Shown here piece after piece: positions 13,916-23,141 of a DNA stretch of 32,211 bases. Positions within the stretch are counted from its first letter, which is position 1; each line of letters opens with the position of its first letter. The notes under the pieces are model-generated. The model had not been told where the DNA came from. It ran no database searches and was given only the letters and a program-made list of their open reading frames with translations. Both the position numbers and the translations under genes were made by a program. The stretch comes from Planctomycetaceae bacterium (lineage in GTDB: Bacteria; Planctomycetota; Planctomycetia; Pirellulales; UBA1268). The stretch spans positions 1 through 32,211 of the forward strand of contig CANGGT010000025.1 in the NCBI GenBank assembly GCA_947453375.1, given 5' to 3'.

Positions 13916-13985
<70 letters not shown>

Positions 13986-13988
<3 letters not shown>

Positions 13989-14261
13989 TTCGCGTGCGTC
14001 CCTGTTTTTCAGGGACGCACGCTCCTCGGCGGGGGTCACCGTGACACCCCCGTCCCGAGCACTGTTCGCCACACTGCTCCCTTCCGCTGTCGATAACGCT
14101 CTCCGATGGGCGTCGGAGGCCGCCCAGACCGCTGCCAGGAACCAAAAGGCGGTCGCAGCAGCGCTCAGCGCGAGGACCGCGGCGACGACGCTCCAGCGGC
14201 CCAGGCCGATCGGTATGCGTCCCTCGCATAGTGGCGCCATCAGCGGTTCACGACCTTGCAC
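13986..14261 (-). CDS. Hypothetical small single-pass membrane protein
   Basis: This is a reading frame of 91 residues from a GTG at 14261, or 84 residues from an ATG at 14240, and I cannot choose between them because neither has a clear ribosome site. One membrane helix is predicted at about residues 23-47 (VVAAVLALSAAATAFWFLAA), followed by a polar tail. Codons in the membrane part are strongly GC-ending as in real genes of this genome; in the tail they are less so. Its stop codon overlaps the last three bases of the tRNA on the opposite strand, and its last codons form the right and left arms of a 13-bp inverted repeat. It resembles nothing I can name. The gene may be real but small, and its place within the island suggests an accessory function. 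Confidence 0.45.
13992..14022. repeat. Perfect 13-bp inverted repeat next to the tRNA
   Basis: GCGTGCGTCCCTG at 13992-14004 is the exact reverse complement of 14010-14022, separated by five T. It begins 4 nt after the tRNA. On the plus strand the RNA hairpin could act as a 3'-end signal for the tRNA transcript, but no U-tract follows. It is absent after the second tRNA fragment at 16506, so it belongs to the island side. Confidence 0.7.
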
Positions 14262-20396: not shown

Positions 20397-21308
20397 TCAC
20401 GCCAGCCGCCCGACGATCGCGTCGGCCAGTGCCGCCGCCGCCGGCGGGTGACGACGGAGCCAGAGCTCCGGCTCGATCAGTTCCAGTTCCATCACGGCCC
20501 ACGCCCCGTCGGCACGGCGCACGAGGTCGACCCGCCCGTAGGCCGGAGGACTTTCGCACGCCGCCATCGCCGCTTCGGCCAAGCTGATCTGCGTTGCAGT
20601 CGGCGTGCAGGGGTGGACCGTTCCGCCGTGGTCGTCCTGAACGCGGAAGTCCCCCGGTTTCGCCCGCTTTGTCAGGGCATGGGTGAATCGCCCTCCGACG
20701 ATGACCAGCGTGTCCTCGCCGTGGGCGACGATGTCGGGCTCGAACGGCTGGACGAGAAACGCCTCGGCCGCGAGGAGCGTGTTGATGGCCCCCTCGAGCG
20801 CGACGGCGCCCCCGGCATCGAAGCGGTGGGTGTGACGTGCTCCACCGGAGATCGCCGGCTTCACGACCCCCTCCTTCCAGCCTTCGGCCGCGAGGACCCC
20901 GGCGAGGTCGGCGGTGGCGCCACGCTCGAGGAACCGGGTTGGAACGATCGGCACGCCCCGCGACGCGAGGTCGGCGAGGTAATGCTTGTCGAGGTTCCAG
21001 CGCACCGTGGCGGTGTCGTTGATCAGCCTGGTCACCGGCCCGACCCGGTCGAGCCAGGCGGCAAACTCCGCTTGCCGATCGTAGTAGTCCCACGTCGTGC
21101 GGAACACGACCGCCCGGAACGCCCCCCAGTCGATCCGTTCGTCGGCCCAGTCGAGCCGAACGCTCGACAGCCCCCGTGCCGCGAGCGCCTCGGCGAGGAG
21201 CCGGTCATCGGCGAGGATGTTGCCGAGATACCAATCCCCCGGCTCGGCCGCGGAGGCCGTGTAGCGGCGGTCGGTGAGCAGGGCGATCTCGGCACGCGGT
21301 CCGGCCAT
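20397..21308 (-). CDS. ATP-grasp domain protein, glutathione-synthetase/RimK-like
   Basis: This is a 303-residue cytoplasmic protein. The N-terminal part (AEIALLTDRRY, then VRLDWADERIDWGAFRAVVF and RTTWDYYDR) looks like the pre-ATP-grasp domain of the RimK/DcsG type. The ATP-grasp core follows with NDTATVRWNLDKHYL, WKEGVVKPAISGGARHTHRF (the lysine of VVKP), QPFEPDIVAHGEDTLVIVGG, KPGDFRVQDDHGGTVHP, and YGRVDLVRRADGAWAVMELE with ELIEPELWL holding acidic magnesium ligands. Such enzymes join a carboxylate to an amine through an acyl phosphate, and the partners cannot be told here. AGGAG lies 8 nt before the ATG. It sits 43 nt after the DUF1559 gene on the same strand, so the two may share a transcript. 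Confidence 0.88.
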   Translation of the reverse strand: MAGPRAEIALLTDRRYTASAAEPGDWYLGNILADDRLLAEALAARGLSSVRLDWADERIDWGAFRAVVFRTTWDYYDRQAEFAAWLDRVGPVTRLINDTATVRWNLDKHYLADLASRGVPIVPTRFLERGATADLAGVLAAEGWKEGVVKPAISGGARHTHRFDAGGAVALEGAINTLLAAEAFLVQPFEPDIVAHGEDTLVIVGGRFTHALTKRAKPGDFRVQDDHGGTVHPCTPTATQISLAEAAMAACESPPAYGRVDLVRRADGAWAVMELELIEPELWLRRHPPAAAALADAIVGRLA

Positions 21309-21351
21309 TCACAGTCTCCTGGCGGTCGGCCGGACCGCGCGCGAAAAGAGA

Positions 21352-22347
21352 TCACCAATCGCCGACGGCTTGTCCGTCGGCCGGATGGCAGACGTTCGCC
21401 CAGGTCACCGGGTCGATGTCCCCTTGGACCGACCGGACGCTGGCGTCGCCGAGCGTGATACTCATCCCGCCGTAATGGGGCGTCTGAGCCCGGGCGGAAT
21501 CACACGCCTTGATCCAGTGCGGGGCGGCCTGAAACACCGCGCAGGCGGTGTAACCGGCGGTCGACGGCGTCTGCATCGTCTCATTCACACAGAACACCGG
21601 GCGCCAGCGGCTGTTGGAATCGCTCCACAGATTGCCGTTGGTGCTCGAATCGTTGACGTTGCCGCTGGAGCCACAGGTGCCGTACTTCTCGGCGATGAGC
21701 ACGGTGCTCGTGGTGCCGTCGGGCATCGACTGCGAGATCCGCGAGCTCCCCTGGATGCGGGCCTCGGGGGTGGCAGCGGTCGGATTTCCGAAGACGTTGT
21801 AATTGACGGCGTAGTTCCCCACCGCCCATTCCGTCGCCCCGCCGCTGGTGGTGGCCCCCATCCCGCTGGGGCTCGACATCTCCGAGGGGCAGAGGAAGGA
21901 CGGGATCGACACGGCGTAGATCGTGCCCGCTCCCGGAGCACCCGGGACCGGCGTGTAGACGGTGCGGTTGGCGAGATCGAAGAGATTCCCCTGCTCGATG
22001 TAGGGGAGGAGCCAGGTGAAGGCGGTGAAACCGGTGGAGCCGCGGTAGCCGTTGCCGGCGAGCGCGGTCAGATCCCGGCTCGACGGCGAAGCAACCGGCG
22101 GCAGGCCGCGCTTCGCGTCGTTGATCGACTGGCAGGCGATGCCGAGCTGCTTGAGCTGGTTTTTGCACGACATGCTCCGGGCGGCCTCGCGGGCAGCCTG
22201 AACCGCCGGCAGAAGGAGGCCGACGAGGGTGCCGATGATGGCGATGACGACGAGCAGCTCGACGAGCGTGAAGGCCGAACGACCGCGGCGGGTGACGGTC
22301 CGCATCGGCCGGATGGGGGAGGGCTGGAGGCTGGGAATGAGACCCAT
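21352..22347 (-). CDS. DUF1559 prepilin-like protein
   Basis: This is a 331-residue protein with the type IV prepilin-like start RRGRSAFTLVELLVVIAIIG: a positively charged leader, FTLVE processing site and long hydrophobic helix, followed by LLLPAVQAAREAARSMSCKN. The DUF1559 body continues with KRGLPPV, WLLPYIEQGNLF, FLCPSE and GTTSTVLIAEKYG, and it ends in the family signature SITLGDASVRSVQGDIDPVT and WANVCHPADGQAVGDW. The frame is open far upstream (to 23187), but that part has no match. The ATG at 22347 has AGGAG 10 nt before it; 22305 is an alternative giving a shorter leader. Planctomycetes carry many such genes, of unclear surface function. A strong hairpin sits in the leader. Confidence 0.93.
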   Translation of the reverse strand: MGLIPSLQPSPIRPMRTVTRRGRSAFTLVELLVVIAIIGTLVGLLLPAVQAAREAARSMSCKNQLKQLGIACQSINDAKRGLPPVASPSSRDLTALAGNGYRGSTGFTAFTWLLPYIEQGNLFDLANRTVYTPVPGAPGAGTIYAVSIPSFLCPSEMSSPSGMGATTSGGATEWAVGNYAVNYNVFGNPTAATPEARIQGSSRISQSMPDGTTSTVLIAEKYGTCGSSGNVNDSSTNGNLWSDSNSRWRPVFCVNETMQTPSTAGYTACAVFQAAPHWIKACDSARAQTPHYGGMSITLGDASVRSVQGDIDPVTWANVCHPADGQAVGDW

Positions 22348-22390
22348 GGTTCGGAGGCTCCTGGGGGGAGCAGCGTGCCTGAGTGGCTGA

Positions 22391-22406
22391 CGGGCCGCCT
22401 GGCCCG
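22391..22406 (-). promoter_or_regulatory. Small stem-loop in the DUF1559 leader
   Basis: CGGGCC at 22391-22396 pairs exactly with GGCCCG at 22401-22406, leaving a four-base loop. It lies 10 nt from the larger hairpin and about 44 nt before the start codon. In the leader RNA the two would stand side by side. Confidence 0.5.
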
Positions 22407-22416
22407 ACCGCTGCGA

Positions 22417-22478
22417 TGGAACGCCAACGGCGGCGCGGAGCCTGTGATGGATCCGTGCCGCCGTCTGCTGGCGTTCCA
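22417..22478 (-). promoter_or_regulatory. Long stem-loop in the DUF1559 leader
   Basis: The outer arms TGGAACGCCA (22417-22426) and TGGCGTTCCA (22469-22478) are exact complements. They continue directly on the left and after a 4-nt bulge (22465-22468) on the right into 13-base inner arms, 22427-22439 with 22452-22464, which differ by one base (G-T wobble). The loop is 12 nt. The result is a 23-pair stem about 70 nt upstream of the DUF1559 start codon. It has no U-tract on either strand, so it is not a simple terminator. Confidence 0.75.
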
Positions 22479-22667
22479 GCTCACGGAAGCCTATCCGGCC
22501 ACGAGAGGGGCTGCCATCCGGCGGTCCGCCAGCAGTTCCCGTGCCGAAGGCCGACAAAATCGCCTCCGACCAGGCCCCAAGACCATGGCACGGAAAGACT
22601 TGCGCCGAGAGGAAACCGCCCTGTCGGGCCCTGCCGAAGCGCCCGAAAAAATGCGATTCCGCCCGTG

Positions 22668-22955
22668 TCAGCTCGGCCGCGGTTCCGCCCAGAGCCGGGC
22701 CGTTCTCGGTGAGGGGACACCGTAACGGACTTCGATCGGCATGCCCGCCGCCCCCGCTGCGGCGGGCGATCCGCCGCCGCCAACGCGATCGTCCGCCTCG
22801 GGTTCGATCGGCTTCAGTGCCGTCACGGCCACCGGCCCATCCCCGTCCTCGGGTTGCCGGAATGCCAACGCACCCAGCACCATGCCGACTGCCACCAGGG
22901 GAATGAGCGCCCACTGGGGAGGAGGCCCCCAGAAACCGCTCGGAAGTGGGGACAT
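22668..22955 (-). CDS. Hypothetical small single-pass membrane protein
   Basis: This is a 95-residue frame starting MSPLPSGFWGPPPQWALIPL. GGGGAG lies about 8 nt before this ATG, which decides against the earlier in-frame ATG at 22982. There is one membrane helix at about 15-32 (WALIPLVAVGMVLGALAF), then an acidic and glycine-rich stretch, and a polar end, MPIEVRYGVPSPRTARLW. I know no family for it. Codon third positions are mostly G or C, as in its neighbours. It precedes the DUF1559 gene on the same strand by about 320 nt. It is probably a real gene, but comparison with relatives would be needed to be sure. Confidence 0.5.
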   Translation of the reverse strand: MSPLPSGFWGPPPQWALIPLVAVGMVLGALAFRQPEDGDGPVAVTALKPIEPEADDRVGGGGSPAAAGAAGMPIEVRYGVPSPRTARLWAEPRPS

Positions 22956-23141
22956 GACAGATTCTCCCCGGGACCGGACCATGGGACCCGACCGGGAAAC
23001 CTAGGCCACAAAAAGCCCGTCGGCAAACCCTCTCCGGGACTGTGGCCGGCAACCCTGCCCCGGTTTCGCCGGTACCACCCGCCGCGACGGCACCCGCGGA
23101 AAAACCGGCCCAGAGTCCATGAATCGTGGAAAGAGTCGGCA

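Follow-up and report, generated by a model that had tools for sequence, protein, structure and literature searches.

An RNA element upstream of one DUF1559 gene in a Planctomycetaceae bacterium is likely, at a probability of roughly 70%, to be the structured 5′ untranslated leader (some 170 nt) of a single pseudopilin-like mRNA, which would tune expression post-transcriptionally after sigma-54 has acted. A structured RNA leader was one of several readings offered in a first-pass annotation of this DNA, and it is the one upheld by an orthologous position in 12 of 12 congeners, by compensating changes in the long stem P1, by proximity to the Shine-Dalgarno sequence and start codon, and by a promoter-like box upstream. 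The window (the whole stretch analysed, 32,211 nt) corresponds to contig 25 of a genome of 4.5 Mb assembled in 334 contigs. The features on which the argument draws are as follows.

21352–22347, minus strand: DUF1559 (PF07596) gene of 331 aa with a prepilin N-terminal methylation motif
22358–22361, minus strand: Shine-Dalgarno sequence GGAG, predicted to pair with CUCC just upstream (weak hairpin P3)
22358–22501, minus strand: conserved structured RNA, scoring 159 bits in the window with its covariance model (R1), at this locus in 12/12 genomes of the genus
22370–22414, minus strand: element P2, a closing stem and two small hairpins (P2a, P2b)
22409–22414 with 22370–22375: P2 closing stem GCAGCG/CGCTGC, 98.6% of cells paired
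22391–22396 with 22401–22406 (hairpin 22391–22406): P2a, perfect 6-bp stem with a 4-nt loop
22377–22387: P2b, small 3-bp hairpin
22417–22478, minus strand: stem P1, long and bulged (outer 10 pairs, inner 8+4+2 pairs, variable loop)
22417–22426 with 22469–22478: outer P1 arms, 10 pairs
22427–22442 with 22449–22464: inner P1 arms
22465–22468: P1 bulge of 4 nt on the 5′ side
22517–22521, minus strand: predicted transcription start, placed about 12 nt past the −12 GC of the box
22531–22547, minus strand: sigma-54-like promoter box TCGGCACGGGAACTGCT (GG-N10-GC), top-scoring site of a 190-nt stretch in 12/12 genomes of the genus
22668–22982, minus strand: conserved small ORF whose product shows one apparent membrane segment (by eye)

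Architecture and conservation of the element

The conserved position, structure and box of the leader are established by computation. On the gene strand the order is P1, then P2, then the Shine-Dalgarno sequence, as given by the alignment of orthologous leaders from 12 genomes. The 3′ end of P2 lies 8 nt from the Shine-Dalgarno sequence in the window and 7–13 nt from it across the genus. The GGAG that follows P2 is replaced by GGAA in one genome (G007), and the first ATG stands 7–10 nt beyond the Shine-Dalgarno sequence in all twelve. Refolding bore out the positions originally described for the long hairpin and the adjacent 6-bp stem with its tetraloop. The description of the inner helix as 13 pairs with one wobble holds for the plus strand but fails on the gene strand, where the wobble becomes an A.C mismatch and the inner stem therefore consists of 8+4+2 pairs. 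Similarly, the 88 bases first delimited are real but incomplete, the conserved unit extending from 22358 to 22501 and including the additional P2 closing stem.

The 151-nt stretch 22380–22530 folds on the plus strand to −93.3 kcal/mol, against −70.2 ± 4.0 kcal/mol for shuffled sequences (z = −5.74; 0 of 200 shuffles as stable), and the hairpin spot is the most stable among 3213 overlapping 90-nt stretches of the window on that strand. Arm length alone is unexceptional, because the window's 16 perfect inverted arms of 10 bp fall inside the shuffled range (mean 6.2, maximum 18). The gene-strand leader of 144 nt gives z = −4.45, while other DUF1559 leaders of the same genome give values from −1.73 to +1.43 (24 leaders, 23 of them distinct, L103 being the same as L106). 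Across the genus the z of the R1 leader ranges from −0.82 to −4.97; G011 has an unremarkable value (−0.82), and those of G002 (−1.98) and G008 (−2.33) are modest.

DNA searches and the covariance model placed the element at the orthologous site before the same DUF1559 gene in 12 of 12 genomes of the genus, a conserved place directly upstream of one gene as is characteristic of a cis-regulatory leader. Under stricter filters, at which weak matches are lost, R1 found nothing in 60 genomes of other genera in the family, and its 12 positives among 396 genomes of the order all belong to this genus. With the filters off, no place in four loci of the sister genus scored above 10.4 bits, and none at the leaders exceeded 5.2 bits (L072 being without a leader); a homologous leader in the sister genus was rejected on these low scores. 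A different hairpin, GCAGUUC..GAACUGC, occurs at a similar place in L123, L124 and L125, and because its folding z is weak (only −0.40 to −1.67) no homology is claimed for it. The leader also differs in a possible orthologue from another genus (G033, L131), in which a box-like site without GGCA scores 14.5 of 17 about 250 nt before the ATG. In Rfam 15 no family reached the gathering threshold, tRNA being the only match in the whole window, and an E-value scan of 22300–22700 gave six weak matches far below threshold.

Further R1 matches inside the genus (E up to 1) comprise antisense self-matches and eight weak off-locus places. The four of these eight that were inspected proved to be other hairpins and not second copies: G004:C258 has another long stem, whose 3′ arm contains a T-run; G003:C121 and G001:C71 share a single hairpin located after an apparent stop codon; and G009:C104 has a different hairpin with no clear P1. 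The suggestion of a small mobile palindrome of the REP or MITE kind, for which copies at several loci would be expected, was abandoned, DNA and covariance searches of the genome itself and of the genus having found a single copy per genome, at the same locus. Separately, 21 bases of G007 (C24:24879–24899; L136 880–900) are identical to window positions 22459–22479 in the P1 region; the match lies, by eye, inside an EDRRLLAFQ coding stretch and is probably due to chance.

Evidence of compensating change comes from 479 scored cells in 12 sequences, of which 93.9% are standard pairs and 6.1% unpaired. Two-sided changes are found in 7 of 40 pairs, all of them in P1, and 0 of 500 shuffles reach this number. 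As shuffles ignore kinship, null columns were simulated on a tree built from DUF1559 coding sequences, some of them truncated by contig ends. Only 2 of 2000 tree simulations were as high for two-sided pairs (7 versus 2.1 expected), and the same holds for paired cells (93.9% versus 87.3% expected) and for pair types (18 versus 11.9 expected); two-sided cells are less striking, with 61 of 2000 simulations as high. Covariation beyond phylogeny is thus seen for P1 on three of four measures, for a structure derived in part from the tested sequences, which favours it on the paired percentage. In P2 there are zero two-sided changes among the 12 genomes, the variation being one-sided or pairing being lost in some sequences, and invariant pairs are no more frequent there (9 of 16) than in P1 (12 of 24). 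Since two-sided changes are confined to P1, P2 is backed by conservation and folding and not by covariation. One column pair (100/117) is unpaired in 10 of the 12 sequences.

Loss of the stem in close relatives, or arms changing without compensation, had been named in the first-pass annotation as grounds for giving the structure up. The stem is present in 12 of 12 genus genomes; its arms show two-sided changes in P1, and the structure largely withstands both conditions, although the unpaired cells mark some broken positions. One base is missing from the stem of G011 and the outer part of P1 carries two mismatches in G007. Wobble pairs provide a weak test of strand: G.U cells outnumber A.C cells by 18 to 4 among the scored pairs, a single position contributing 8 of the 18, and 7 sequences have A.C at position 48/71, which is omitted from the structure. 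The strand assignment therefore rests on position and on the box.

The promoter-like box and its locus

In the alignment the box occupies one and the same place in all 12 genomes of the genus, lying 29 nt upstream of the RNA in ten of them, 30 nt in G009 and 40 nt in G003. It was scored with a scheme devised for this analysis from a general sigma-54 consensus (maximum 17). Taken singly, the sequences are matched in box score by between 0.3% and 15% of their shuffles, so the case for sigma-54 lies in the place shared by all twelve. The GG-N10-GC spacing, the TGGCAC- and TTGC-like boxes and the one RpoN match in the window's genome are together those expected of a candidate sigma-54 promoter. 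Such a box is again the top-scoring site in L014 and L071, the two leaders tested from the sister genus, which lack the RNA; there it stands some 230 nt upstream of the start region. No sigma-70-like promoter was found on either strand of 22300–22700. An intrinsic terminator was considered for this region and rejected, with zero sites combining a GC-rich hairpin with a U-tract on either strand.

The genome has 39 DUF1559 matches, and the RNA precedes just one. Thirty of the 39 loci were fetched (nine were left out) and 28 were scored for the box, two being without the motif pattern; the scored set includes three truncated or overlong leaders (L095, L104 and L110) and the duplicate L103 = L106. 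The window's box is the best of these 28 at 15.0 of 17, the runner-up scoring 13.5 in an overlong stretch of 2533 nt. DUF1559 proteins are presumably classed in COG2165. The sigma-54 consensus is given as TGGCAC-N5-7-TTGCT in PMC12316311; among the targets predicted for sigma-54 in Planctomycetia, that paper also reports COG2165 as enriched to a lesser degree.

The usual order at the loci searched is a DcsG-like gene, DUF1559, the RNA, the small ORF, two STAS genes and a SpoIIE-type regulator. In the window a chemosensory cluster lies beside this partner-switching set, with STAS, STAS, a receiver–SpoIIE phosphatase, CheR, CheB, a chemoreceptor, CheW and a CheA-like kinase between 23186 and 32034. 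The small ORF has no Pfam or NCBIfam match; in relatives it is 39–92% identical over the matched parts, the G007 copy being 45% identical. G007 and G009 carry a chemoreceptor gene (PF00015, 4HB_MCP_1; L137 689–2725 and L138 2180–4186) between the small ORF and the DUF1559 leader, where the window has none, and despite this insertion the box and RNA remain directly before DUF1559. In the sister-genus loci searched, a box was found beside DUF1559 but no STAS or DcsG gene. Together this evidence indicates that the box and RNA belong with DUF1559 and not with its neighbours.

Proposed function and alternative explanations

We infer the transcription start, the strand of the transcript and every regulatory step of the leader model. 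Transcription probably begins at a sigma-54 promoter at about 22531–22547, and the nascent leader would fold the long stem P1 first and the three-way element P2 second. P1 and P2 may then shield the 5′ part of the message or be cut by RNase; a helix of about 24 pairs could serve as a substrate for RNase III. A processing site, another of the first-pass readings, is neither favoured nor disfavoured by these results. The fold around the Shine-Dalgarno sequence would restrict ribosome entry, so that expression of the DUF1559 surface protein might be tuned, at translation or stability, after sigma-54 has switched it on. In predicted ensembles of the 12 leaders the Shine-Dalgarno sequence is mostly paired in eight; in G008, G009 and G010 it is open in part, and in G007 for the most part, hairpin P3 being weak in the most divergent genomes.

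Some of the same features could suit a sensing switch, in which binding of a metabolite, second messenger or regulatory protein to P2 uncovers or masks the Shine-Dalgarno sequence. P2 is a three-way element close to that sequence. Judged by eye, the final two bases in the 3′ strand of P2 are also needed for the two outer pairs of an extended P3 (GCUCC/GGAGC), so that P2 and the extended P3 would compete; a T in G004 at the overlap preserves both pairings as wobbles. Furthermore, the gene adjoins the chemosensory and STAS/SpoIIE cluster. However, the element has no Rfam match and falls in no known riboswitch class, and it is confined to one genus, as most metabolite riboswitches are not. P3 is weak in G007, G009 and G010, and the pairs of P2, the supposed sensor, are no more conserved than those of P1. 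On balance such a switch is possible but unlikely. Its fullest form appears more doubtful again: a new genus-restricted regulatory RNA in which a P2 sensing domain opens and closes the Shine-Dalgarno sequence of one sigma-54-driven pseudopilin, coupling the chemosensory/STAS locus to a pilin-like surface output. Were sensing by P2 true, surface output would be controlled at two levels, promoter and leader.

The promoter-like box and compact fold would also suit a small RNA that is transcribed from the sigma-54 promoter and acts in trans, whether separate or processed out of the leader, and sigma-54-driven small RNAs such as GlmY/GlmZ and Qrr do exist. Such an RNA is nevertheless improbable here, as there is no terminator-like site between the RNA and the gene, the end of the P2 stem comes just 7–13 nt before the Shine-Dalgarno sequence in 12 genomes, and the upstream insertion of a gene leaves the element next to DUF1559. 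It is highly unlikely that the repeat acts at the level of DNA, as a mobile palindrome, a REP/MITE or a protein-binding site, and not as RNA. The inverted repeat is long, its plus strand folds well too and the strand test by wobbles is weak, but there is one copy at the same locus in 12 of 12 genomes, the off-locus matches inspected (four of eight) are other hairpins, and the structure is extended and asymmetric, with a bulge and a three-way element. Least probable of all is a 3′ end or attenuator of the conserved small ORF, which lies 166 nt away on the same strand but is followed by no terminator-like site and is separated from the RNA by the chemoreceptor gene in G009 and G007.

Related systems and the DUF1559 family

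As a structured leader of the DUF1559 message, R1 belongs among structured 5′ leaders but matches no Rfam family. A GG-N10-GC box before a gene with a prepilin methylation motif is shared with sigma-54-dependent type IV pilin genes (pilA-like); here, by contrast, the gene encodes a DUF1559 protein and has a long, structured leader. The ompA leader carries 5′ stem-loops that stabilise its mRNA, and the present element, judged from sequence alone, is like it in placing strong stem-loops in the potential 5′ UTR of a surface protein message, although its fold approaches the Shine-Dalgarno sequence. The Rhodopirellula-1 motif (PMC2864571, Table 1), one of the orphan cis-regulatory motifs from comparative surveys, is likewise a conserved RNA candidate located in a putative 5′ UTR. 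The table gives its distribution as Proteobacteria and Planctomycetes, rates it ambiguous as an RNA and probable for cis-regulation, and gives no Rfam accession. R1, for its part, gave no match outside its genus in the search of 396 genomes from the order.

DUF1559 genes number in the dozens in planctomycete genomes. Rhodopirellula baltica is credited with 74; cold and salt shock raised the expression of nine of them within the first hour, and heat shock lowered that of 16 (PMC2754498). In the literature collection searched, no paper joins DUF1559 and riboswitches. In the genome studied here one paralogue is set apart, as the sole DUF1559 gene with the RNA leader and the one with the best sigma-54-like box of those scored. 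A paralogue with dedicated control would offer a testable entry into the family.

Some minor observations concern the surroundings of the gene. Between DUF1559 and the DcsG-like gene lies a second long hairpin (21286–21356, minus strand) of 16 predicted pairs, whose 3′ arm covers part of the ATG and the first DcsG-like codons and whose interior contains AGGAG. The same position holds a hairpin of 10–15 pairs in L064, L065, L066, L067, L073 and L074 and folds otherwise in L068, L069, L070 and L013; such a hairpin could couple or restrain translation of the DcsG-like gene. L065, L067, L068, L075 and L076 come from metagenome-assembled genomes (MAGs) titled ‘Candidatus Kuenenia stuttgartiensis’, with a gene 88–97% identical to that of Planctomycetaceae MAGs, and these titles look wrong. 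Elsewhere in the window, a 13-bp stem with a T-rich loop (13992–14022) stands right after the tRNA gene at 13916–13988.
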